Both the position numbers and the translations under genes were made by a program. This document shows positions 16,060 through 62,442 of a stretch of DNA of 64,000 nt, piece by piece (positions within the stretch are counted from its first letter, which is position 1; each line of letters starts with the position of its first letter). The stretch is from Natrarchaeobius halalkaliphilus (GTDB lineage Archaea > Halobacteriota > Halobacteria > Halobacteriales > Natrialbaceae). The notes beneath the pieces were generated by a model. That model had not been told where the DNA came from and made no database searches. It saw nothing but the letters and a program-made list of their open reading frames with translations. The stretch is from positions 434,001-498,000 of the forward strand of contig NZ_REFY01000002.1 in the NCBI RefSeq assembly GCF_003841485.1, in the 5' to 3' direction.

Positions 16060-18144
16060 TTAGAACGGAACGCGAAGCAGGTTCCAGTACCACAGCAGCC
16101 AGCAGAAGCCGATCACGCTTGCGACGACGAGCGCGTAGTGGATCCTTGAGAGCCGACCCCAGTAGCCGTCGCGCCAGGAAACGACGGCGTATCCCGCCGA
16201 CGCGGCGGCACCGCCGGCACCGAGCAGCCCCAGGAGCGAGACGAGTTCGTACGCGAACGGCGGGTCGCTCAACAGCGTGTGCGGGTACAGAACCAACAGT
16301 GTAACCACGCCGGCGACGAAGGCGAACAGAGAGGCGATCGAACCGCCGGCGATCCAGCGCGCACGCGCCGGCCCGGCGAACGACAGTCCGAGCGTGGATC
16401 GCGACTGGGGTTCGTCACCGACGGACGCTTCAGAAGCACTCGAGGCCGAATCGTCGTTCGATCCCAACTCCGGGCCGTCGCTCGGGTCTCCCCCGCCGAA
16501 GCGCCGCCAGCCCCACGACAGCGGCCAGGCGGCCAGCCCGGAGACCATTCCAAGCGCCGTCACGCCGGCGAGTCCGCCGTGCAACGAGAGCGACTCGTGG
16601 CGCGAGATCCGTTCGTACGCGTGAAAGCCGGTGAAGAGGTGAGTCAGCTCGCCGCCGTCGTCGCGAAACGCGAGCGTCCCGGTTCCGTCGACCTCGTCGA
16701 AGACGAGCGGCTCGCGTTCGATCCACCGGGTCGTCCCGCCGTCACTGTCGGTGACGAGGTATCCGTCGTCGTCGACCGAGACGTCGATCTCGCCGGCCTG
16801 TAGCGTCGACGACAGTCGAGCATGGGTGGACTCCGCGATCCGCACGCCGCGGTACGTTCCGGCGAGATCGTCCGTCCGCTCCGGGAGGCCGTCCGGCTCC
16901 GTCTCGATCGAGGATTCCGCGTCGGTTCTCGGAACGAACTCCTCGAAGAACGCGTCGAGGACCTCGGCGTTCGCCGCGGCTCCGGTGTTCGTGTTGTACG
17001 TGAGAAACAGGCCGAGATCGTACTCCGGGACCAGTAGCAGGTAGCTGTAGAATCCGGGCACCATCCCGTCGTGATGGAGGACTCGAACGCCGCGTCGCTC
17101 GTCCTCGAGCAGTCCGAACGCGATGCCGGAGACCGCCTCGTGGTGGGTGAACCACCTGTCCAGCGTCGCGTCGACGGACTCGGACTCGAGGATCCGTCCA
17201 CCGTCGACGGCCCCGTCGCCCAGCAGCGCTCGCACGAGCTGCGCGACGTCAGTTGCCGTCGCGACCGCCGCGCCCGCGGGTGCGATCTCGAGGCCGAGTT
17301 CGGGTGCCTCCCCGACGGTGCCGGCAAAGGCCGTGTAGCCTTTCGAGACGCTGACGCCGTCGGGGACCGGCTGCTCGAACGTGGCGGTCGTCATCGACAG
17401 CGGCTCGAACAGCGACTCCGCTACGTAGTCCTCGAAACTCGTTCCCGCAACGTCGGCCACGAGCTGTCCGGCGAGTGCGGTCCCGTAGTTCGAGTACGAC
17501 GCGATTTCACCGGGCGGTCGAACCCGTTCCGGTTGCGATTCGTTCAACACGTCGGCCAGAGCTCTTCGCTCGTCTGGATCGTCAATCCAGGTACCCCGAA
17601 ATCGCTCCTCGAAGCCGGCCGTATGGGTCGCGAGGTGGGCGACGGTCATCGGCTCGTCGTACGCGTCGGAAATCGAGACGGACTCGAGGGAGTTCCGGAC
17701 GTCCTCGTCCGGATCGATTCGCCCTTCCTCGATCAGTTGCATCGCGGCAGTCCAGACGAACGGTTTCGAGACCGATCCGATCCGGAAGGTTGTTTCGTCG
17801 GCGTCGACTGGGATTCCATCCGCGCGGTCAGCGTCGCCGAATCCGCGCGCGAGCTCGACACCGTCGCTTCGGACGACGGCCATCGACGCGCCGACGACGT
17901 CGTGGTCGTCGAGCAGGTCCGGGACGGTCTCGTCGACGAACGTTTCGAGTCCCTCGAGGTCGACGTCGGGGGTCGTTGCATCGGTCGTCCGTCGCGTCTC
18001 GGACGACGAAGGGGATCGACTCGTTGTCGCAGTTTCGGGGCCGGGTTCGCCGCGACCACGCCGAGTGAGGCAGCCCGCGAGCGACGCCGTACCGAGGAGG
18101 GCCGATCCCGAGAGAATCCGTCTGCGGGGTAGTCGTCTTGACAT
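16060..18144 (-). CDS. Tat-exported lipoprotein, serine hydrolase of the beta-lactamase/PBP class C fold with C-terminal membrane domain
   Basis: A 694-residue protein. The N-terminus has a twin-arginine stretch (PRRRILSGSALLGTASLAGC) ending in a lipobox LAGC, so it is probably exported by Tat and lipid-anchored. A Ser/Thr/Asp-rich spacer follows, then a class C beta-lactamase-like domain with SVSK (near residue 125, nucleophile Ser and Lys), YSN (the Tyr base motif) and HHDG. After about residue 480 come four hydrophobic segments that place the hydrolase outside the cell. Haloarchaea lack murein, so the substrate is likely a peptide or ester, not peptidoglycan. Not shown to act on antibiotics. 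Confidence 0.88.
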   Translation of the reverse strand: MSRRLPRRRILSGSALLGTASLAGCLTRRGRGEPGPETATTSRSPSSSETRRTTDATTPDVDLEGLETFVDETVPDLLDDHDVVGASMAVVRSDGVELARGFGDADRADGIPVDADETTFRIGSVSKPFVWTAAMQLIEEGRIDPDEDVRNSLESVSISDAYDEPMTVAHLATHTAGFEERFRGTWIDDPDERRALADVLNESQPERVRPPGEIASYSNYGTALAGQLVADVAGTSFEDYVAESLFEPLSMTTATFEQPVPDGVSVSKGYTAFAGTVGEAPELGLEIAPAGAAVATATDVAQLVRALLGDGAVDGGRILESESVDATLDRWFTHHEAVSGIAFGLLEDERRGVRVLHHDGMVPGFYSYLLLVPEYDLGLFLTYNTNTGAAANAEVLDAFFEEFVPRTDAESSIETEPDGLPERTDDLAGTYRGVRIAESTHARLSSTLQAGEIDVSVDDDGYLVTDSDGGTTRWIEREPLVFDEVDGTGTLAFRDDGGELTHLFTGFHAYERISRHESLSLHGGLAGVTALGMVSGLAAWPLSWGWRRFGGGDPSDGPELGSNDDSASSASEASVGDEPQSRSTLGLSFAGPARARWIAGGSIASLFAFVAGVVTLLVLYPHTLLSDPPFAYELVSLLGLLGAGGAAASAGYAVVSWRDGYWGRLSRIHYALVVASVIGFCWLLWYWNLLRVPF

Positions 18145-18334
18145 CGGTACCGTCTGTGGATTCCAGCAGAATCGGTATATGTATTTTGGTCAATATTTCA
18201 CCCCCGATATCAGGAGGTGGTCTCGGTGGCGAACGGACAGGCGGCTTTGGAAGGGCGGTCCGACCGAACCGATTGGAGTGGCAATCGACGGTAACCGTGC
18301 GCTCGCGTTCGATCGACCGTCAGTAAAAAAACAA

Positions 18335-18350
18335 TACTCGAGGGCGAGTA
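18335..18350 (+). promoter_or_regulatory. TrmB-type regulator box in the pyk promoter
   Basis: TACT-CGAGGGC-GAGTA matches exactly the consensus TACT-N7/8-GAGTA known for TrmB of Halobacterium salinarum, which controls glycolysis and gluconeogenesis genes including pykA and ppsA according to sugar supply. It lies 42-57 bases before the pyk ATG and directly upstream of the TATA-like TGTATCTTTTTG (18356-18367). Confidence 0.65.
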
Positions 18351-18391
18351 AGTCCTGTATCTTTTTGACCGTGCTCGCGCTACCTCGAGCC

Positions 18392-20149
<1,758 letters not shown>

Positions 20150-22555: not shown

Positions 22556-23269
22556 ATGGGAATCCTCCAAACGCTGAAGTCACTGTTGGGGCTCGGTGAT
22601 TCGAGTCCACAGCGGCGGGAGTCTCGAGAGGTCGGTGTAACCGTCGAACGGGAGAGTTCGCGCGGGGAAGTCGGACACGACGAAGACGATTCGGATCCAG
22701 CCGCGGCCGGCTCCGACGCTGCCGGCTCGACGGCATCGCTGACGGAACCGTCGGACGATCCTGACCGGGCCGCCGAACCCGCTGAGGCCGCCGGACCGAC
22801 CGAATCGGACGCGACGCCGGCATCGGAACCGGACCCGGCGGACGGAGTCAGTCACATCGAGGAAGCCGAGAGCCCCGAACCGACAGACGCCGAGAGTCCC
22901 GAATCGAGCGACGAACACGACGGACCGGAACGTGACGAGGCGAAGTCGGACTCGGTGGTCGACGAGACGGGGTCAGACTCCGAGACCGACGAGACGGAGT
23001 CTGATTCGGAGTCGAACGAACTCGAGAGCGATTCGGAGTCGGCGACGGAGGACGACGGATCCGACTCTCCTCGAGACGCGGACGACGAACACGGAGAGCC
23101 CATCACCTCGATCAAGGGGATCGGACCGGCCTACGCCGACCGCCTCGCGGACGCGGGCGTCGAAACCGTCACCGAGCTCGCTGATGCCGACGCGGCGGAA
23201 CTCGCCGGCGGCACGGACATTTCGGAGAAGCGAATTCAGGGCTGGATCGACCGCGCAGCGCTTCGGTGA
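22556..23269 (+). CDS. acidic linker protein with amphipathic N-terminus and C-terminal helix-hairpin-helix domain
   Basis: A 237-residue protein in three parts. First is a short amphipathic helix, MGILQTLKSLLGLG. Then come about 160 disordered residues of Asp/Glu/Ser/Pro, including an S-D-S-E-T-D type repeat. A compact C-terminal HhH domain (ITSIKGIGPAYADRLADAGV, about 175-237) closes it. HhH domains of this type bind DNA or mediate protein contacts. Together the parts suggest a membrane- or partner-tethered DNA-binding protein, which is inference. ATTTAAG at 22524-22530 is a TATA box about 27-32 bases before the ATG. Confidence 0.72.
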   Translation: MGILQTLKSLLGLGDSSPQRRESREVGVTVERESSRGEVGHDEDDSDPAAAGSDAAGSTASLTEPSDDPDRAAEPAEAAGPTESDATPASEPDPADGVSHIEEAESPEPTDAESPESSDEHDGPERDEAKSDSVVDETGSDSETDETESDSESNELESDSESATEDDGSDSPRDADDEHGEPITSIKGIGPAYADRLADAGVETVTELADADAAELAGGTDISEKRIQGWIDRAALR

Positions 23270-23300
23270 CGCCGGCGCGTATTGCCATCAACGGCTTCAG

Positions 23301-40270: not shown

Positions 40271-42717
40271 TGGCTGACGAAGCCGATCCCGACGCGATCG
40301 CTGAGGCCACGGCGTCGTTTCGCGATCAATACGACGACGGAGAGCACACGCTCGAGACGGTTCTCTCGGTCGACGACGAGTACGAAACCTGGACGTTCGA
40401 CGATCTTCCGCTCGATTCAGGAATCTTCGGGGAGCTCGTCTCTCGCGGTATCGTGAGGAAACGCGACGGCGAGTACCGTATCTCGAGTCGCGAAGGCGTC
40501 CGGGCCGGACTCGAGGGGAGAGCGGTATCCACGGTGGACCAGGACGATCCGCGGCGTGCTCTCTCGAGTCCGATCGCACTCGACGTGCGTGCAGGAGCGG
40601 CACTCGTCTGTGCGCTCGCCTTCCTGTTCGGAATGCGGGTGCTGAACTATCGGTCGGTGGTGCGTGGCGAACACGTCGTTTCCCCGGCGAACGATCCCTA
40701 CTACTACCGGTACTGGATGGAAACTCTGCTTTCGGAGTCGGACGGAATCACGGATACGACCGTCGTCACGGACATGCCCGACGCCGCCGCCTCGCGCCGA
40801 CCGCTGACGCACGCTTCGAATTGGGCGCTTGCCGAACTCCTCGGCGGCGATCAGTGGGCTGCGGACATGGTCGCCGCCTGGCTCCCGGTCGTCGCGACCC
40901 TCGCGCTCGGAATCGTCGTCTACTGGCTCGCCCTGATCGTCACCGACGACACTCGAGTCGGGATCGCATCGGTCGGTCTCCTCGCACTCACGCCGGTACA
41001 CGCGGTCTACACGAGCATCGGCTTTCTCGAGCACCGCCCGTACCAGTACCTCTGGATTGGGGTGACGATTCTATCGCTCGCCTGGCTGGCCGTCGACGTG
41101 CAGCGGCGGCGAGAACGTGCGTCGAGACCACGAGTAGCGATCCGTGAGCACCTGCTGTGTCCGTGGACGTGGATCGCCGCAATCGTTCTGGGGATCGCAC
41201 TGGCGTTCTCGGTGCACTCCTGGGGTGGGTCGATACTGCTGTTCGTTCCCCTCGGCGCGTACGCCGGACTGAAAATCGCTCTCGACGTTCGGGCGGGCCT
41301 CCCACCGATGGCCGGGAACGCGCCGCTGCTGGTCGGAGTCGGCATCGGCGGAGCGATCACCGTGCTCTTGCACGTTCGGTGGGGCTGGCACGAACCGTTC
41401 ACCGCCGTCGTCTCTTCGATCGTCGTCGTCGGCATCGTGGCCGTCGCCGCCGTCGGAGAGCTGTGGCACCGCCTCGAGTGGCCCACTCTCGGAATCCTCG
41501 CCTTCGAAGGCGGAATCGCCGCTGTCGGCGTCAGTGCACTGTGGTATCTCCGCCCCGATGAGTGGACGCGACTCGAACAGCGAGCCGAGGACCTGTTCGC
41601 TCGGGAGGGTGCGACGGAAACCGGGTCGCTGTTCACGACGGAAAACGCGGTCGTACTCGAACCGATGGCCCAGCTCGGACCCACGTTTTACATCGCGATC
41701 GCCGTACTGGGGTGGGCCGCCTGGACCGTCTCCCGACGGTACGATCCGGCGTGGGGGGTGCTCGCCGTCTACAGCCTATTCTGGCTCGTGCTGGCGGCGT
41801 TTCAGGTTCGCTTTGCGGCACAGCTGTCGATCGTGGTATCGGTCCTGGGTGGATTGGGACTCGTCCACCTGCTGGCGTGGCTCGATCTCGTCCGGACTCC
41901 AGTTCCGTTCCGAGAGTCCACCGCGAGCGCTCGAGATACGGTTGGACCGAGCGCTCGTGATACCGCGGCCGACGGGGGCGACCGCGAGCCGAGTATCGCT
42001 CTCCCGGAGGACGGGCGCACGCTCGGAGCACTCATCTGGATCGCGTTGCTGGTCTGTGGGTTGAGCCTGATTTTCGTGCCGACGTTGAGTGCCCAGACGG
42101 TCCACAGCGACGCACAGTTCGAGGCCGCGATGGCTATCGACGACCACGCGGCCGACCGAGAGACCCCGAAGACCTTCGTGTTGAGCGAGTGGGGCGACAA
42201 CCGCATGTACAACTACTTCGTCAGCGGCGAATCCTCGAGTTACTGGTATGCTTCCCGACACTTCGAGGAGTTCAGGACTGGCGGAGATCCCGACGGCTGG
42301 TACGAGGAGTTCAACGAGAGCGACGTCGGATACGTGGTCCTCACCGAAGCGGGGGGATACGACGAGCGAAATGCACAGCGACAGCTCCACGACGAACTCG
42401 GAACGGGCAGCGACGGAGAGACGCCGCTCGAGCACTATCAGGCGGTCTACGTCGACGACGAGGTGACGGCCTTCGCGGTGGTTCCAGGTGCCACGATCAC
42501 TGCAGACGGTGAACCGGGCGAAGAACTGTCGCTCGAGACCGAGGTACCCGTCTCGGGCGAAACGGTTACTTACGAACGAACGGCTACCGTCGACGACGAC
42601 GGAACGCTGGCGGTGACGGTACCCTATCCCGGAGAGTACACCGTCGGTGAACGAGAGATCGACGTCCCAGCGCGAGCCGTCGAAACCGGGTCGGTACTGG
42701 AACTCGAGCAGTCCTGA
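40270..42717 (+). CDS. STT3/AglB-like oligosaccharyltransferase homologue with altered motifs
   Basis: An 815-residue membrane protein. A soluble N-terminal part of about 100 residues resembles a winged helix (WTFDDLPLDSGIFGELVSRG with IVRKRDGEYRISSRE). Then come about 12 membrane helices and a C-terminal extracellular domain. In the first outer loop DPYYYRYW (near 142) matches the STT3 D-x-Y-Y motif. The second outer loop has EHRPYQYL (near 253) where AglB usually has D-H-H. Where STT3 has W-W-D-Y-G it reads SEWGDNRMYNYF (near 640). The fold is clear but catalysis is uncertain. Its neighbours are sugar-nucleotide genes. Confidence 0.8.
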   Translation: MADEADPDAIAEATASFRDQYDDGEHTLETVLSVDDEYETWTFDDLPLDSGIFGELVSRGIVRKRDGEYRISSREGVRAGLEGRAVSTVDQDDPRRALSSPIALDVRAGAALVCALAFLFGMRVLNYRSVVRGEHVVSPANDPYYYRYWMETLLSESDGITDTTVVTDMPDAAASRRPLTHASNWALAELLGGDQWAADMVAAWLPVVATLALGIVVYWLALIVTDDTRVGIASVGLLALTPVHAVYTSIGFLEHRPYQYLWIGVTILSLAWLAVDVQRRRERASRPRVAIREHLLCPWTWIAAIVLGIALAFSVHSWGGSILLFVPLGAYAGLKIALDVRAGLPPMAGNAPLLVGVGIGGAITVLLHVRWGWHEPFTAVVSSIVVVGIVAVAAVGELWHRLEWPTLGILAFEGGIAAVGVSALWYLRPDEWTRLEQRAEDLFAREGATETGSLFTTENAVVLEPMAQLGPTFYIAIAVLGWAAWTVSRRYDPAWGVLAVYSLFWLVLAAFQVRFAAQLSIVVSVLGGLGLVHLLAWLDLVRTPVPFRESTASARDTVGPSARDTAADGGDREPSIALPEDGRTLGALIWIALLVCGLSLIFVPTLSAQTVHSDAQFEAAMAIDDHAADRETPKTFVLSEWGDNRMYNYFVSGESSSYWYASRHFEEFRTGGDPDGWYEEFNESDVGYVVLTEAGGYDERNAQRQLHDELGTGSDGETPLEHYQAVYVDDEVTAFAVVPGATITADGEPGEELSLETEVPVSGETVTYERTATVDDDGTLAVTVPYPGEYTVGEREIDVPARAVETGSVLELEQS

Positions 42718-43026
42718 GTTGTGTCGAGCGGTGCGGCGCGTGAAAAGCACCGTATTGGTCGGGTACACTCGGGTTTCGGCCCGAAACGGTGCTCTTACCG
42801 ATACTTCACATCACCGAGACCGGCCGACTGTTCCGCCAGAACGCAGTGCTCGGTGTGAGGAATCAGTCAGTCGAACACGGACATACAATACGTGTATCGG
42901 TATCGTCCAGCACATCGTTTCAGCTCCGGAACATGCAATTGTGTCAGACTGAAAAACTTTCGGTAGTCGACGCTCTCGAGAAAACATCAAATGGAATATA
43001 GTATCTGTTGGTGAGGCACGCAGTGA
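42718..43026. other. intergenic region, promoter of the glycosylphosphotransferase gene
   Basis: A 309-base gap. GAATATAGTATC (42994-43005) is a TATA-like box about 22-33 bases before the ATG at 43027. I see no convincing gene; the short frames present have no haloarchaeal amino acid bias. No repeat was seen. Confidence 0.4.
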
Positions 43027-46312: not shown

Positions 46313-47572
46313 ATGGCGGACGACTCCGAATCCGTACTCGTCGTGACGCAGTATTTCCCGCCGGAAACGGGAGCGTCCCAGACGAGGTGGGATGAGCTCT
46401 CGAGACGCTGGTCGGACGAGGTCCCCGTGACCGTCCTGACCTCCGCCCCCGATTATCCAGAGGGAGAACTGTACGACGGCTACGACAACCGGTGGTTGCG
46501 ACGCGAACGAAGGGGCGACGTCGAGGTGCTCTACACCAAAACAATCACGTCCTCGAGCGGAAACCTCCTCCGTCGGAGCCTGAAGTTCGTCTGGTTCATG
46601 CTTATCTCGACGATCATCGGCATTCGATACACGTCCCCGTCAGTCGTCGTTGCCACGTCGCCACAGCCGTTGACCGGCGTTTCGGCCTGGATCACCGCCC
46701 GGGTCAAAGGAGGATCGTTCGTGTTCGAAGTTCGTGATCTCTGGCCCGAGTCGATTCTCGCAGTCAGCGAGTTCGGCAATCGGTTCGTCATCCGGGGTAT
46801 GGAACGAACGGTGGCGTTCCTGTACCGGCGCGCGGACCACCTCATCGTGGTTTCACAAGCTTTCGTAGATCCGATCGCGGAGTGCGGGGTCGACCGGTCG
46901 AAGATCTCGTTTCATCCTAACGGGATCGACCTTGAGTTCTATCGGAGAGGACCCGCCGAGTCCCCGGTGGTGGACGATATCGACGACGAGTTCACCGTCT
47001 CGTACGTGGGCACGATCGGGCGGGCACACGGGCTGTCCGTCGTTCTCGACGCAGCCCTGGAACTGGATGACGTCCAGTTCGTGCTGGTCGGCGACGGGGC
47101 CGAACGCGAGGAACTCGAAGTCCGGGCTGCCGGACTCGACAACGTCGTGTTCGCCGGCCGCCGACCGAAGGAGGAAGTGCCGGCCATCCTCCGGGAATCG
47201 GACATCGCTCTCGTTCACCTGAAGCCGCGCGATGTCTTCGAGACGGTGATCCCGTCGAAGCTTCTGGAGTCGATGGCGGCCGAACTCCCGATTATTTTAG
47301 GAGTTCATGGCGAAGCCGAGCGAATATTGACAGAGGCGGACGCTGGCATCGCTATCGAACCGGGGAGCGGTGACGAACTGATCGCCGCGGCGGAGCAACT
47401 TCGGGAGAACCCGGAGCAGCGGCAGATGTTCGCCTTCGCAGGACGAGAATACGTGGTCGAACAGTTCGATTGGGAGACCATTGCCGACGCGTATCTAACG
47501 ACTATCACCGAGGATCCAGACCAACGGAGTGATGCGAGACCGGAACAATCCGTAACGAACGCGGACCTTTAA
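46313..47572 (+). CDS. glycosyltransferase family 4 (WbuB-like)
   Basis: A 419-residue GT-B enzyme. The N-terminus SVLVVTQYFPPETGASQTRW is typical of WbuB/FnlC-type transferases. The donor-binding domain carries FTVSYVGTIGRAHGLSVVLD, VQFVLVGDGAEREELE, and KPRDVFETVIPSKLLESMAA (the E-x7-E region). The enzyme would add a sugar, often fucosamine or a related N-acetyl sugar, to a lipid-linked glycan. The ATG at 46313 is favoured over an earlier one because AATTAACT stands about 25-32 bases upstream. It is followed after 41 bases by wecB. Confidence 0.9.
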   Translation: MADDSESVLVVTQYFPPETGASQTRWDELSRRWSDEVPVTVLTSAPDYPEGELYDGYDNRWLRRERRGDVEVLYTKTITSSSGNLLRRSLKFVWFMLISTIIGIRYTSPSVVVATSPQPLTGVSAWITARVKGGSFVFEVRDLWPESILAVSEFGNRFVIRGMERTVAFLYRRADHLIVVSQAFVDPIAECGVDRSKISFHPNGIDLEFYRRGPAESPVVDDIDDEFTVSYVGTIGRAHGLSVVLDAALELDDVQFVLVGDGAEREELEVRAAGLDNVVFAGRRPKEEVPAILRESDIALVHLKPRDVFETVIPSKLLESMAAELPIILGVHGEAERILTEADAGIAIEPGSGDELIAAAEQLRENPEQRQMFAFAGREYVVEQFDWETIADAYLTTITEDPDQRSDARPEQSVTNADL

Positions 47573-57743: not shown

Positions 57744-57885
57744 GACGGGTGTTGGAGTGCGCTCGTTCTTCCAAATCGTTCGTACAATTTACGAGACCCG
57801 ATAGAAAGACCTTTTCGAAATTTTGGGTTCAATAGTTCTCTTTCCTAGAAAAGATTATTAAAGGATGGCAAATTACGTCGTGGCC

Positions 57886-58791
57886 ATGGATGAAGGTTTA
57901 GTATCAGTCATCATTCCGACATATTATCGAAATAACGAGTTGGAGTCAGCAATCGAAAGTGTATTGAGGCAGACATATAAAAACTGCGAAGTAATTGTAG
58001 TCGATGACTCCGGAGAACAATACGCAAAAAGTTTAGTAGATTGCTATGATGGTGTTAATTACATAGGGTTAGAAGAAAATAGAGGGGCAAATTATGCTAG
58101 ATCAATTGGCACATATAAATCTAATGGATGCGCCATCCAATTTTTAGATGATGACGATATAATCCATGAGAAAAAGATAGAAAAGCAGATGGCTCTTTTA
58201 AACAGATATTCAGGTGTAGTATATTGTGGGTTTCAAAGGAACAATATAATTCATTTACCACCAGAAAGAGGAAAGGGAAACGTGTTAAAGGTGACACTCG
58301 GGTTTGATTTAAATAAATGTATTACATCCTCCATGCTAATTAGAACTGATTTAGTTAAAGATATTCTACCCTTCCCCAATTTACCTGGTTCGGATGACAC
58401 TTACTTAAAAATAGAGTTGGCAAAGCGAACATGTTTTGATTTTGTTTCTGAACCATTAGTTGAAAAACGTAGTTTGAATGATTCAAGAGGATCAGGTGAA
58501 GGTGCCCTCTATGGCATGAAAGAGGTTATAGAATTATTCGATGGACTTTATAATGAATATGATCCTGAGGTCAAAAAATCAGCTATTTCATCATTCTACT
58601 TGAGAAAAGGGAGTTTAGAATTGGAAAAGTCAGGTTGGTCTCATCGTGCCACCATCGACATATTTAAATCTCTAGTTTATTCCCCAAATATATTTAATAT
58701 TGGGTATTTTCTATGCGCAATATTTGGGCGACCAGGAGTTAAAGTAGGGAAGTTTATATTCAATAAAGCTAGTAACAACCGTTCAATGTAA
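57886..58791 (+). CDS. glycosyltransferase family 2
   Basis: A 301-residue GT-A enzyme. VSVIIPTYYRNNELESAIES, SVLRQTYKNCEVIVVDDSGE, ENRGANYARSIG and the metal motif QFLDDDDIIHEKKIEKQM (D-x-D type) are typical. It would transfer a sugar to the growing glycan at the inner membrane face. The hydrophobic C-terminus (FNIGYFLCAIFGRP) could touch the membrane. An ATG at 57865 gives seven more residues; I prefer 57886 because GATTATTAAAG stands about 28-35 bases before it. Lowest-GC gene of the window. Confidence 0.88.
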   Translation: MDEGLVSVIIPTYYRNNELESAIESVLRQTYKNCEVIVVDDSGEQYAKSLVDCYDGVNYIGLEENRGANYARSIGTYKSNGCAIQFLDDDDIIHEKKIEKQMALLNRYSGVVYCGFQRNNIIHLPPERGKGNVLKVTLGFDLNKCITSSMLIRTDLVKDILPFPNLPGSDDTYLKIELAKRTCFDFVSEPLVEKRSLNDSRGSGEGALYGMKEVIELFDGLYNEYDPEVKKSAISSFYLRKGSLELEKSGWSHRATIDIFKSLVYSPNIFNIGYFLCAIFGRPGVKVGKFIFNKASNNRSM

Positions 58792-59239
58792 CTAGTACTT
58801 CTAGTTGATCCTTCAACAATAAGTTTGATGATATTGTCAGAGACTGGCTCTCAGTGACCAAGCGTACGCTTGACAAACGCCATGCGTGTGCGATGCTGGT
58901 ATCGAAAATTTCGCAAGATCGTCCTACTGGTTGTCGGCTACAACATTAAGCGTGCTGTGATCTAAGTAAATCCAATGTCGTATGGCGATTGACCAACTCC
59001 TTTCTGGACTGAGAATGGATTCGTAATCACCGCTAAGCTCTCGAGATAACGACTGTAACAAGTTTCAGTACCTCACAAAGCGTTACCAGCTAATTCGATC
59101 TGAGTCTCCAGTTTCGTCCTGACGAGTCATCACGAGTGGGTGAACTACGCTGATCGAAGAGGGAGCTGTCGCTGTCGGTGGCGATTAGCCGCCGATGCGA
59201 CGGCGTTGCCACTCGCGGTGAGGCTTGCTCCGTCGGTGG
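58792..59239. other. intergenic region with IS debris
   Basis: The 448-base gap contains the transposase tail listed at 58858-58965. Further right GAGTCTCCA (59102-59110) is a possible left end of the ISH3-type element. No intact gene was seen. Confidence 0.45.
58858..58965 (+). pseudogene. C-terminal remnant of a transposase (IS5-like)
   Basis: The + frame ending at 58965 reads MRVRCWYRKFRKIVLLVVGY then NIKRAVI and a stop. This is the characteristic end (W-Y-R-x-F-R-x-I-V and Y-N-I-K-R-A-V) of haloarchaeal IS5-type transposases. Upstream, in another frame, VTKRTLDKRHACAM continues the same protein, so a frameshift separates them. The rest is lost. Confidence 0.65.
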
Positions 59240-60406
59240 TTACCGGTGGAACCGATCGTCCGGTGGCCGATTTGTGGGGACGGCCCGACGCACCGCGAGG
59301 GACGTCCACGCTGCCCGTCGGATCATGTTGATGAACTCCTTGAACGGCCAGGACCAGAGGCGACGCCCGCCACGGCGGGGCGTCGCCACATACTCCCAGT
59401 GTAGATACCGCCACACGTTCTGCAACAGCAGGCTCACCACGACGTACAACAGCCGTACGACCGGATCTTGCGTCGATGTCGTCGCAATACTCTGTTCGGA
59501 CAACCGGTAGCTGGCCTCGATACCGAAGCGTTTCGCGTAGTGGTATCGAGCGTCTCGTGGCGTGTCGATGAACGGCGCGTCAGCGGCGTAGCCGTGACGC
59601 GCCACGCCATGTTCGTTGTAGCGTCCATTCTGGTAGGCACAGTCGATGTAGACGGGAAACTCGACGGTCACAGCTGGACCGTCGAGTTTCCCCGTCAGGT
59701 CGTGTTGGATGACACGACTCCAGCCTTCAGAGAGTTCCTGCTTGATCGTCTTTCCCCAGCGGACGATCGGCATCACGTAGGCGTAATTGGGCGCCTGAAG
59801 CAACGTGAGACACTTGCTGTCGTAGAATTCACGGTCGAGATAGACGGCCTTGACGCTGAAGTCAAGGCCGTCGAGCACACCGAGAAACTCAGCGAGGACA
59901 CAGCTGGCAGTGTCGCCGTCTTCGAGACGGCGCACAGTCAGCGTAAATCGCTTGTTCGTCACACGTGCGTAAAGTGTAGCGTACGCGTGGAATGCAGTGG
60001 TTCCACGTTTCGCTTCCGAATGATAGAGGCCGTCCGTCTCGTCCTCGTCACCGTAGTAGGGCCGCAGGTGGAGGTCTGCGCAGACCTCCACCTGCTCGGG
60101 AAGTACGTCGAGAACGTCCTTCTGAAGCAGCGTATTGCCAATTCGTTCGACCGACTCCAAGTCGAACTTCTCGCGGAGGTGGTACAGAACCGTGTTGTGG
60201 TGGGGTGAATCTTCGCTCTTCTCGCAGAGTGTCGAAACCGAGGTCCCGTCGGCGCATGTGCCGACGAGGACCTCGTGAACGTCTTCAGACGTCGTTTTGG
60301 CGTTGAGAGCGAGGTCAAGCTCAACTTCCTCGTCAATCGTGTTGACGAGGAAGTTAAGAACCTGGTCCTCATGGATTGAACCGTCTGCTTGCGTGGGATT
60401 GAACAC
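59240..60406 (-). CDS. ISH3-family transposase
   Basis: A 388-residue transposase of the ISH3 type found in haloarchaea. The acidic residues expected for DDE chemistry lie in VCADLHLRPYYGDEDETDG, AVYLDREFYDSKCLTLL and AKRFGIEASYRLSEQS. The frame is full length and undamaged, so the element may be active. The gene contains at least seven near-perfect inverted repeats, including a perfect 32-bp palindrome at 60064-60095. It is GC-rich inside an AT-rich island, so it arrived separately. The ATG at 60406 gives the usual length. Confidence 0.9.
   Translation of the reverse strand: MFNPTQADGSIHEDQVLNFLVNTIDEEVELDLALNAKTTSEDVHEVLVGTCADGTSVSTLCEKSEDSPHHNTVLYHLREKFDLESVERIGNTLLQKDVLDVLPEQVEVCADLHLRPYYGDEDETDGLYHSEAKRGTTAFHAYATLYARVTNKRFTLTVRRLEDGDTASCVLAEFLGVLDGLDFSVKAVYLDREFYDSKCLTLLQAPNYAYVMPIVRWGKTIKQELSEGWSRVIQHDLTGKLDGPAVTVEFPVYIDCAYQNGRYNEHGVARHGYAADAPFIDTPRDARYHYAKRFGIEASYRLSEQSIATTSTQDPVVRLLYVVVSLLLQNVWRYLHWEYVATPRRGGRRLWSWPFKEFINMIRRAAWTSLAVRRAVPTNRPPDDRFHR
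60064..60095. repeat. perfect 32-bp palindrome inside the transposase gene
   Basis: The sequence from GCAGGTGGAGGTCTGC to its exact reverse complement has no spacer. On the - strand it codes for the region EQVEVCADLHLRP, which contains a conserved acidic residue of the transposase, so the palindrome lies in functionally constrained DNA. Confidence 0.9.
60323..60355. repeat. 14-bp-arm perfect inverted repeat in the transposase gene
   Basis: AACTTCCTCGTCAA and TTGACGAGGAAGTT are separated by five bases (TCGTG). It codes for NFLVNTIDEEVEL near the transposase N-terminus. Confidence 0.85.
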
Positions 60407-60939
60407 ACCATCGGCAAGCAGACATCCTACCTAGTCACTTACCATTTAGTGGAGACTCTCGGATTTGTCCCGACTGCATCAAGTCGCCTTGTGAAGTACT
60501 GATACCGATCCGCCACGACGGCTAAAACCGAGCGATCGGATCTTTCGTGGTCGTGGTTGCTCGCGGCCGGCGAAGTAGTCGATAAACCCGTTTCGGTCGC
60601 AGATTAACTGCGGTAGAGCTGTTCAACGCGTTTCGGTGGGTAAGGGATGCGTACACGAACGACCTCGCCGTATTTCTCTGATTGTCCGGTTGATAGAAGA
60701 ACACAGATCGCGAGCGGGAACTCAGATTCCTGCTCATTTTCGTTATACATGCGATAAATTGTCATGTATGATTTGTACCTCTCTAACATCTATATTCGAC
60801 TATTACACCCGAACCGTCCTCGATAGAGGTGATTCCAATTCCGTCGGCTTACCCTTGTCATAATCTCGTATTGTCGTTCCAGGCCAGGGTCACAATACGG
60901 TTCGATGATGGTCGGAACAATCGAACTTGAATCCTAACG
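60407..60939. other. intergenic region, no confident gene
   Basis: A 533-base region. The right end of the insertion sequence is expected near 60458. A - strand frame at 60604-60789 (NEQESEFPLAICVLLSTGQS, then EKYGEVVRVRIPYPPKRVEQ) has a sensible composition and may be a small protein or a remnant, but it matches no family I know. Otherwise nothing is seen. Confidence 0.4.
60604..60789 (-). CDS. possible small protein of unknown function
   Basis: A 61-codon frame with ATG at 60789. The part from about residue 14 (MYNENEQESEFPLAICVLL) through VRVRIPYPPKRVEQLYRS looks protein-like, so a start at that inner Met is also possible. There are no neighbours on the strand and no recognised motif. It lies beside insertion-sequence debris and could be a fragment of a longer gene. 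Confidence 0.25.
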   Translation of the reverse strand: MLERYKSYMTIYRMYNENEQESEFPLAICVLLSTGQSEKYGEVVRVRIPYPPKRVEQLYRS

Positions 60940-61242: not shown

Positions 61243-62442
61243 ATGAACATATTAATGACAATTTGGGGTGACTACCCGCCCGATGCCAGAGTTAGAAAGC
61301 AAGCGAAGACACTTCTCAACGCTGGCCATAATGTCAGAATTCTTTGTGAATCAGATTCCCCCGGTATCGAAAATATAAAGGGGGCTACTGTCCACCGAGT
61401 ATATCGTCCGGATCCGGGCCATAACCTACGAGATGTTCCGCGTTCCATCGAATTACTTCTAAAAAATGTAGATCCATTATGGAGGGACGAAGTTCAAAAT
61501 GAAATTAAGAAGAATGTCGATATAATTCACGTACATGACCTTCCACAAGCAAGAACTGTACTTCAAGAGAGCAACGTACCTGTTATTTTGGATCTTCACG
61601 AGAATTATCGTAAGGCAATCTATCACTATCGGCCGGACCTGAACTTTTGGAAGATACTGACCAATCCAAAAATACTAGCGAGACGAGTATGCAAGCCTCC
61701 TTGGCGCTATCATTGGGAGCAGAAATTTGCGATGAAAAACGCCGACCATGTACTAGCAGTAGTTCCAGAAGCTAGGGACGAATACATCCGGTCAGGAATC
61801 GATCCGGAGGCCGTTTCGGTCGTTTCAAATACTGTTGATTTAGAGTGGTTTGATAGACATATACCAAATTCCGACGACCTGTATTCCGAAGAATTCACAC
61901 TTACTTATGTTGGTAGTGTGTCTGGACCACATAGAGGTTTAGATACGGTAATTCGGGCAATCCCTCGGATTAAAAAGGAGATTCCAAATGTCCTCTTTCG
62001 AATTGCGGGAGGAGGCCAACTGAACGATTTAGAAGATTTGGCAAATAACCTGGGAATTCGGGATCACATTGAATTCACTGGGTGGATTGACGAAACAGAA
62101 TTCCCGAAATATATGTCAAGTGCAAACATTGGACTGTTACCTCATCGATCAAATGGTCACACCAATACAACAATCGCTCACAAATTGTTCCAGTACATGG
62201 CTGCAGAACTTCCGGTAATTGTGACTGATACGCGTGCTGTGGGTCGAGTTGTTAGAGAAGCCAGCGCAGGTGTTGTTGTCCCACCAGAAGAGCCGAATGC
62301 TATCGCTGACGCGGCTATTAACATCTTCCAATCAGAAGTTGGTAGAATTTATGGGAAAAACGGACGAAATGCAGTAGAGTCAAAATATAATTGGTCCCAT
62401 GATAGTAAACAACTCCTGAAGGTATATGACAAGTTGTGTTAG
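61243..62442 (+). CDS. glycosyltransferase family 4
   Basis: A 399-residue GT-B enzyme. Start MNILMTIWGDYPPDARVRKQ with NAGHNVRILCESDSPG. VDIIHVHDLPQARTVL and ILDLHENYRKAIYHYRPDLN are the acceptor-side motifs. TLTYVGSVSGPHRGLDTVIR, IAGGGQLNDLEDLA and GLLPHRSNGHTNTTIAHKLF with QYMAAELPVI form the donor site. It would extend the same glycan. TCATATAAATC (61211-61221) is a TATA box about 22-32 bases before the ATG. AT-rich codons throughout. Confidence 0.9.
   Translation: MNILMTIWGDYPPDARVRKQAKTLLNAGHNVRILCESDSPGIENIKGATVHRVYRPDPGHNLRDVPRSIELLLKNVDPLWRDEVQNEIKKNVDIIHVHDLPQARTVLQESNVPVILDLHENYRKAIYHYRPDLNFWKILTNPKILARRVCKPPWRYHWEQKFAMKNADHVLAVVPEARDEYIRSGIDPEAVSVVSNTVDLEWFDRHIPNSDDLYSEEFTLTYVGSVSGPHRGLDTVIRAIPRIKKEIPNVLFRIAGGGQLNDLEDLANNLGIRDHIEFTGWIDETEFPKYMSSANIGLLPHRSNGHTNTTIAHKLFQYMAAELPVIVTDTRAVGRVVREASAGVVVPPEEPNAIADAAINIFQSEVGRIYGKNGRNAVESKYNWSHDSKQLLKVYDKLC

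Follow-up and report, generated by a model that had tools for sequence, protein, structure and literature searches.

Fold-back palindromes in an ISH3 transposase gene of Natrarchaeobius halalkaliphilus and in other haloarchaeal insertion sequences

Why should a transposase gene be packed with near-perfect inverted repeats? The question arose from a 64,000-nucleotide stretch of the genome of Natrarchaeobius halalkaliphilus (hereafter the window), in which the initial annotation had noticed seven short-loop palindromes within 1.17 kb of coding DNA and had argued that chance alone should give almost none. All seven were recovered in place, together with two hairpins that it had not listed, one over the start codon and h484 (Table 1). 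The gene scored 374.4 bits with the NCBIfam model of the ISH3 family (cut-off 225) and lies in an element bounded on both sides by terminal inverted repeats, in agreement with this family. The ends of the element were first placed through copies in other genomes with differing flanks and then by a search for the end-repeat pattern. In a protein search, the gene was the sole match of its kind in the 3.5-Mb, 12-contig genome. ISH3 insertion sequences generate a short target-site duplication. The 5 bp on either side of this copy, compared by eye, are unequal (agttt at 59061-59065 and atacc at 60502-60506), which may mean that the flanks were altered after the insertion; old copies can lose the target duplication. 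The element is flanked by two ORFs (57865-58791 and 61243-62442) whose translations, judged by eye, are glycosyltransferase-like.

Table 1. Features of the ISH3-type element and presence of its hairpins in relatives
Feature	Coordinates	Strand	Description	Relatives
ISH3-type element, whole	59066..60501	-	bounds are the terminal inverted repeats, by pattern	
Terminal inverted repeat, side 3' of gene	59066..59081	+	CAGTACCTCACAAAGC, 0 mismatches to pattern	
Degenerate hairpin, 3' noncoding part	59165..59204	-	by eye; score below 9	
ISH3 family transposase gene	59240..60406	-	full-length, 388 aa, stop-free open frame; NCBIfam NF033541	
Hairpin h1034	59359..59387	-	10 perfect outer pairs and an inner stem (9-10 outer pairs for h815 and h1034)	at least 75% paired in 79/79 aligned homologues
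Hairpin h815	59574..59603	-	9 outer pairs and 3-4 inner pairs	at least 75% paired in 78/79
Hairpin h734	59651..59696	-	16 perfect pairs and a 7-nt loop at 59654-59692; outer pairs beyond a bulge	
Hairpin h550	59843..59872	-	12 perfect pairs, loop of 6	loop inverted in several relatives
Hairpin h484	59903..59942	-	score 9.5; weaker than in relatives	spans 49 nt in relatives; at least 75% paired in 71/79
Hairpin h328	60064..60095	-	perfect 32-bp palindrome	palindrome at this position in 80/80 distinct ISH3 sequences
Hairpin h151	60239..60275	-	14-15 pairs and one bulged base (15 pairs and one bulged base from the DNA fold); core 60241-60272	at least 75% paired in 79/79
Hairpin h68	60320..60358	-	14 perfect pairs (60323-60355), 17 with one mismatch, loop of 5	at least 75% paired in 50/79
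Start-codon hairpin	60383..60423	-	perfect 10-nt arms, 21-nt loop, score 9	similar hairpin visible in L011, L012 and L014
Terminal inverted repeat, side 5' of gene	60486..60501	-	CAGTACTTCACAAGGC, 1 mismatch to pattern	

Palindromes in the window's gene and in its ISH3 relatives

The array is real and is not explained by chance. The gene contains five ungapped palindromes scoring at least 10, while synonymous-codon shuffles (n = 300) gave a mean of 0.25 with a largest value of 2 and shuffles of codon order (n = 300) a mean of 0.03. When bulges were tolerated, seven palindromes reached this score compared with 0.30 in synonymous shuffles (n = 20; largest value 2), so that the codon-shuffled versions, on which the expectation of the initial annotation was staked, fell far below the real gene. 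Across the whole window, 15 bulge-tolerant hairpins scored at least 11, and five of them lay inside the transposase gene. As single-stranded DNA, each of the nine hairpins of the gene gave a stable fold (-11.3 to -21.0 kcal/mol, z from -3.4 to -8.4), and the longest palindrome spans 46 bp. Low complexity or G+C content was dropped as a cause because the shuffles keep codon usage, and binding sites for one protein were dropped because the arm sequences differ between hairpins. In stretch L111, three ISH3-type elements carry a strong hairpin (score 14.5) directly after the stop codon (23232-23270, 42692-42731 and 46821-46860).

The homologue sample came from a scan of a genome collection, which gave 80 loci, and from 125 genomes of the family, with matches in 82. 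Near-full coverage was found for 101 out of 110 loci (nine were dropped for short coverage), representing 80 distinct sequences. With nucleotide identities of 68-93%, these sequences carried palindromes at the same gene positions (around 68, 328, 550, 734, 1034 and 1115). The option that the palindromes are new, which the initial annotation had proposed to decide by a base-by-base comparison of ISH3 genes, was therefore discarded: the positions are conserved across ISH3 relatives and the array is not private to the window's copy. Synonymous diversity relative to codon usage was 0.69 across 290 codons outside the seven palindromes and dropped to 0.26 across the 80 codons within them (Mann-Whitney P = 1.8e-18), and more dips appeared at gene positions 466-510, the place of h484, and at both gene ends. 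As an argument against selection, this low synonymous variation could in part be explained by the coupling of the arms and the constraint on the protein, without selection on structure.

Pairing itself was then followed in an alignment of 44 sequences. The 140 named pairs were paired in 90.8% of cells, compared with 30.6-46.3% when the partners were slid by 1-3 columns, and doubly changed cells numbered 72 versus 10-24 after sliding. Similarly, the covariation score reached 0.066 against 0.021-0.042 for slid partners, and none of 500 shuffles was as high. Further pair types did not rise above the shuffles of this alignment, 435 of the 500 being as high. When changes were placed on a tree (79 sequences, hairpins at least 75% paired), Watson-Crick pairs turned into A-C in 85 events, into G-T in 79, into other mismatches in 74 and into other Watson-Crick pairs in 25, the last comprising 23 on internal branches and two at tips. 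Compensatory base-pair changes, as expected of a structural element, were thus present in both the ISH3 alignment and the tree. Locus L017, which has six stops and a duplicated stretch, was excluded from the synonymous-diversity, wobble, tree-event, loop-inversion and pseudogene counts. In ISH3 copies with at least two stops the arms changed relatively faster (P = 1e-5), a result that concerns only three sequences and becomes P = 0.07 without L072. The arm breaks of stop-bearing copies were clustered (h328, h484 and h411 in L071; h411, h484 and h550 in L072), which suggests that frame-shifted stretches were aligned out of register, and the comparison was set aside.

Hairpin arrays across transposases and ordinary genes

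An annotated set made up of nine stretches of haloarchaeal plasmids and the window contained 32 haloarchaeal DDE transposase CDSs ("haloarchaeal" standing, for part of the genomes, for kinship to the window's genome at the level of the same order or nearer). These CDSs carried 5.9 hairpins per kb compared with 0.19 expected from shuffles. Some annotated CDSs are not a multiple of three in length, through joining or frameshifts (for instance L154 4209-5092, L115 12301-13370 and L229 19737-20784), and their synonymous shuffles are partly out of frame, the hairpin counts being independent of the reading frame. Hairpins per CDS numbered 7-8 in IS66, 7 in IS4/ISH8, 6-11 in ISH3, 5-6 in IS5 and 5 in each of IS630, ISH6 and IS1595. 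Three further stretches yielded 8 in IS66, 6 and 7 in IS1595, 6 in ISH8, 5 in IS701, 2 and 3 in IS630 and 1 in TnpB. When sequences with stops or a broken frame were left out, the intact full-length genes held 6-8 hairpins in 15/15 IS66 and 25/25 IS4 genes and 4-11 in 74/74 ISH3 genes. Distant haloarchaeal members of one family, with 27-45% amino-acid identity, had a similar number of hairpins, and the aligned places were largely, although not wholly, different. Spacing was even in IS66 (CV 0.19 compared with 0.66 for random placement; 0.3% of placements as even) and weakly regular in IS4 (CV 0.37; 7% as even) and ISH3 (0.41; 15%), sequences sharing at least 35% of 11-mers having been thinned.

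Several genes departed from this pattern. ISH7B had no hairpin, an IS6-like gene had one and ISNpe3 (IS630) had two, while five TnpB genes carried 0-1 each and the IS200 TnpA none; IS6, TnpB and IS200 genes seem to be exempt from the array. The 604-aa ISH7B transposase (L111 26884-28698) aligns to the C-terminal portion of the ISH3 model with 63 bits, below the cut-off, and is a natural exception for comparison. The single hairpin of the IS6-type transposase was found in L154 14650-15267. 

The remaining haloarchaeal ORFs of at least 200 aa (n = 237) contained 45 hairpins in 294 kb, or 0.15 per kb, and only eight had at least three. Pfam transposase families were matched by five of these, one was a pyruvate kinase, one matched IS4 below the cut-off, and the last (L150 9084-9839) had no match. 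This unannotated ORF, with three hairpins and neither a Pfam nor an NCBIfam match, is possibly a transposase remnant. The pyruvate kinase gene (PF00224, 376 bits; window 17564-20146, plus strand) has three hairpins scoring at least 10 and is the only such non-mobile gene in the window. Another 69 ORFs added nine hairpins in 88 kb, three of them in one IS4 transposase ORF. The pyruvate kinase gene on the one hand and, on the other, ISH7B, IS6 and ISNpe3, which are wholly or nearly without the array, count against the reading of a selected array given below.

Outside the haloarchaea the same families looked different. A phylum-wide search for the ISH3 family returned 30 loci, 25 of which had an ORF of 250 aa (the other five were not counted). 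All 12 loci from the window's order or nearer, the window's gene among them, had 4-11 hairpins, whereas all 13 from outside the order had 0-1, including two with G+C contents of 0.52 and 0.55. Likewise, 19 non-haloarchaeal transposases from Sinorhizobium, Agrobacterium, Aeromonas, cyanobacteria and methanogens (IS21, ISNCY, IS5, IS110, IS630, IS66, IS91, ISH3, IS1 and one without family) carried three hairpins in 21.7 kb, or 0.14 per kb; the methanogen and cyanobacterial controls are mostly of low G+C, those from rhizobia, Aeromonas and Salinibacter being the better match. No hairpin was found in twelve further non-haloarchaeal ORFs, one of which (L218) was the sole Salinibacter transposase ORF. 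The top count among bacterial controls, two hairpins against 0.05 expected, belonged to a Sinorhizobium IS110 gene (L228 32211-33401).

Strand symmetry, loop inversion and the acting form

In which molecule would these hairpins act? One explanation is that they work only in the sense mRNA, where they would impede or halt ribosomes or make processing sites accessible, an effect that the RNA chaperone SmAP1 would relieve; the initial annotation had similarly proposed mRNA structures that limit transposase synthesis. In its favour, sense RNA was more stable than synonymous shuffles in 24 genes (z from -3.0 to -13.4) and a predicted hairpin spans the start codon. In addition, PMC10134880 describes ribosomes accumulating at the 5' end of an ISH3 transcript, where SmAP1 also binds and a processing site lies, and reports that IS4 and ISH3 transpose less once smap1 is deleted. 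The antisense RNA of the same 24 genes was, however, likewise more stable than its shuffles, with no difference between strands. A helix of sense RNA should also accept G-U far more readily than A-C, which amounts to G-U only on the other strand. No such excess of sense G-T over A-C was found inside the arms: the events numbered 79 and 85 in ISH3, 9 and 7 in IS4 and 2 and 2 in IS66 (11 and 9 for the latter two combined), which makes 90 G-T against 94 A-C in the three families together. The pairing constraint of the arms is thus strand-symmetric and does not reflect simple mRNA folding. A G-T excess just outside the arms (51 versus 7 cells) was not used as evidence because, by hairpin class and with sequences sharing at least 35% of 11-mers thinned, few classes carry it when taken singly, so that it rests on few independent hairpins. 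Altogether, the extra stability of the sense RNA was borne out, but the equal stability of the antisense and the equal tolerance of G-U and A-C argue against selection on sense mRNA alone, an explanation that we consider unlikely.

The loops gave a second line of evidence. The loop of h734 reads CCAGCTGTG in the window's gene and in L047 and CACAGCTGG in 43 others, a change from HSW to PAV. In h1115, the 14-nt loop region of L104 has 12 differences from that of 40 others when compared directly and none once it is reverse-complemented, and in h815 of L110 an inverted stretch of 16 nt leaves one difference compared with nine in direct orientation. Loop inversion was also seen in h1034 of L108 and repeatedly in h550. 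By our criterion, an inverted loop pair was present in six out of nine hairpins (weakly in h328) and in one out of 625 control windows outside hairpins, the controls being 10-nt windows without flanking arms and thus an imperfect match for short loops such as that of h550. In the unrelated family IS4, three of five hairpins had inverted loops, one exactly over 14 nt. Inversion between arms is what is expected of template-switch quasi-palindromes, and the pattern fits the signature of template switching between the arms during DNA synthesis. The involvement of template switching, which the initial annotation had suggested as an origin, is therefore upheld by the relatives, by the window's own gene and by IS4.

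Could template switching be the whole answer? The array would then be a functionless mutational by-product, in which chance quasi-palindromes are perfected by template switching and the coupling of arms and protein mimics conservation. In its favour, template switching is recognised by loop inversions and paired changes, strand symmetry is expected of it, and changes are frequent at pairs with both bases in third codon positions (471/498 and 474/495). Such a process should nevertheless hit all long-resident genes, which is at odds with the low density in the 237 other ORFs and the 0-1 hairpins of each TnpB gene. Nor does it predict at least four hairpins in every intact member, the refilling in distant subfamilies or the regular spacing in IS66. 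Furthermore, terminal branches showed mostly single breaks (169 single, 2 double), indicating that immediate correction of the arms is not the rule. The mechanism thus stands, but alone it does not account for why transposases and mostly not other ORFs carry the palindromes, and a mere by-product appears improbable to us.

Just as improbable, in our view, is a DNA-level role other than expression, in which the fold-backs would alter how copies recombine, how the DNA is replicated or repaired, or how a host nuclease or defence system attacks the element. Strand symmetry, the stability of the nine hairpins as single-stranded DNA (-11.3 to -21 kcal/mol), the hairpins in the noncoding ends and the loop inversions, which suggest DNA folding or copying across arms in vivo, would all suit such a role, but it offers no reason for the exemption of TnpB, IS200, IS6 and ISH7B.

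A possible brake on transposase expression and its closest known parallels

The reading that we prefer is that of a selected fold-back array, kept by template switching and probably restraining transposase expression; taken as a whole, we give it an even chance of being right. The transposase genes of many haloarchaeal insertion sequences are filled along their full reading frame with short fold-back palindromes at intervals of 80-220 bp, their arms measuring about 9-20 bp and their loops 0-12 nt. The results above show that the numbers of this array far exceed chance, that its positions are conserved in the subfamily, that its synonymous sites are constrained and that its changes are compensatory and include inverted loops. 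Template switching between arms during DNA synthesis would produce perfect arms and inverted loops, and selection would keep the array in transposase genes. We infer selection because, within one host class, many transposase families that are not related to each other have the array, which is scarce in the other genes of that class and in the same families elsewhere, and because template switching alone does not account for the restriction to these genes, the floor of several hairpins per intact gene or the refilling at new sites. Given the strand symmetry of the constraint, the fold-backs are likely to act in the DNA or in both transcripts, and may do so as DNA hairpins or cruciforms or in sense and antisense transcripts; antisense RNAs overlapping transposase genes (58/846) are reported in PMC6523106. 

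How such fold-backs would matter to the element is suggested by Halobacterium salinarum. According to PMC10134880, its mobilome mRNAs are abundant, SmAP1 binds 24 of the 33 mobilome transcripts, and four of the 33 proteins were detected, three of which were TnpB. In the data given there, the families that yielded protein are, ISH2 aside, those that are without hairpins here. Abundant mRNA, proteins that mostly go undetected and protein-yielding families without hairpins make a brake on transposase expression the most likely role of the array, by which a highly transcribed element would yield very little enzyme; the link between hairpins and low protein is a cross-family correlation within a single published data set, and this role is the least certain part of the reading.

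The hairpin arrays of haloarchaeal transposase genes point to a hitherto undescribed constraint on the elements. Should the array be functional, a layer of control common to many haloarchaeal mobile elements would be written into DNA fold-backs above the protein code, and unrelated transposase families would have arrived at it independently. A functional array would also provide a testable physical basis both for the Halobacterium puzzle of abundant transposase mRNA with almost no protein and for the loss of ISH3 and IS4 transposition upon smap1 deletion (PMC10134880). We put forward, more tentatively, a convergent structural code of haloarchaea, in which unrelated DDE lineages would have acquired even, strand-symmetric fold-backs that a haloarchaea-specific factor reads on DNA or on both transcripts, that are renewed by template switching and that the same transposase families lack in other hosts. 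Both structure-based control of transposases and palindromes in coding sequence have precedents; convergence across the clade would count as a new kind should a dedicated factor be found. With their conserved arms and recurrently inverted loops, these genes also serve as a natural archive of template switching in an archaeon, and synonymous-site statistics on transposase genes under such a double constraint are not neutral.

Full-text searches, whose coverage leaves out most subscription papers, returned no description of such hairpin arrays. The closest systems each share part of the pattern. Mitochondrial genes of Nematomorpha contain perfect inverted repeats inside protein-coding sequence, kept together with the protein sequence and up to 284 bp long in respiratory genes of four animal species (PMC6649704). 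Perfect inverted repeats in conserved coding sequence were likewise found in the window's gene, but none of hundreds of bp, its maximum being 46 bp. Unlike those of Nematomorpha, the haloarchaeal arms measure 9-20 bp, are many per gene and occur in several unrelated transposase families while being scarce in the remaining genes of their hosts. Arm correction, paired changes and loop inversion are shared with the template-switch upkeep of hairpins in RNA genes (rRNA genes and microRNAs; PMC8794818) and with inverted repeats in yeast coding genes (yeast genes in general; PMC8604942). In contrast to both, many loci here recur in one mobile-gene class of one host class.

In the IS10 and IS200 type of control, a structure at the 5' end acts through the ribosome-binding site. 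Together with ISPpu9 (PMC8450116), IS10 (PMC5006887) and the 5' hairpin control of IS200 share with our elements an element-encoded structure over the start of the transposase gene, here the predicted hairpin at 60383-60423. Unlike in these systems, the hairpins of haloarchaeal transposases fill the whole reading frame.
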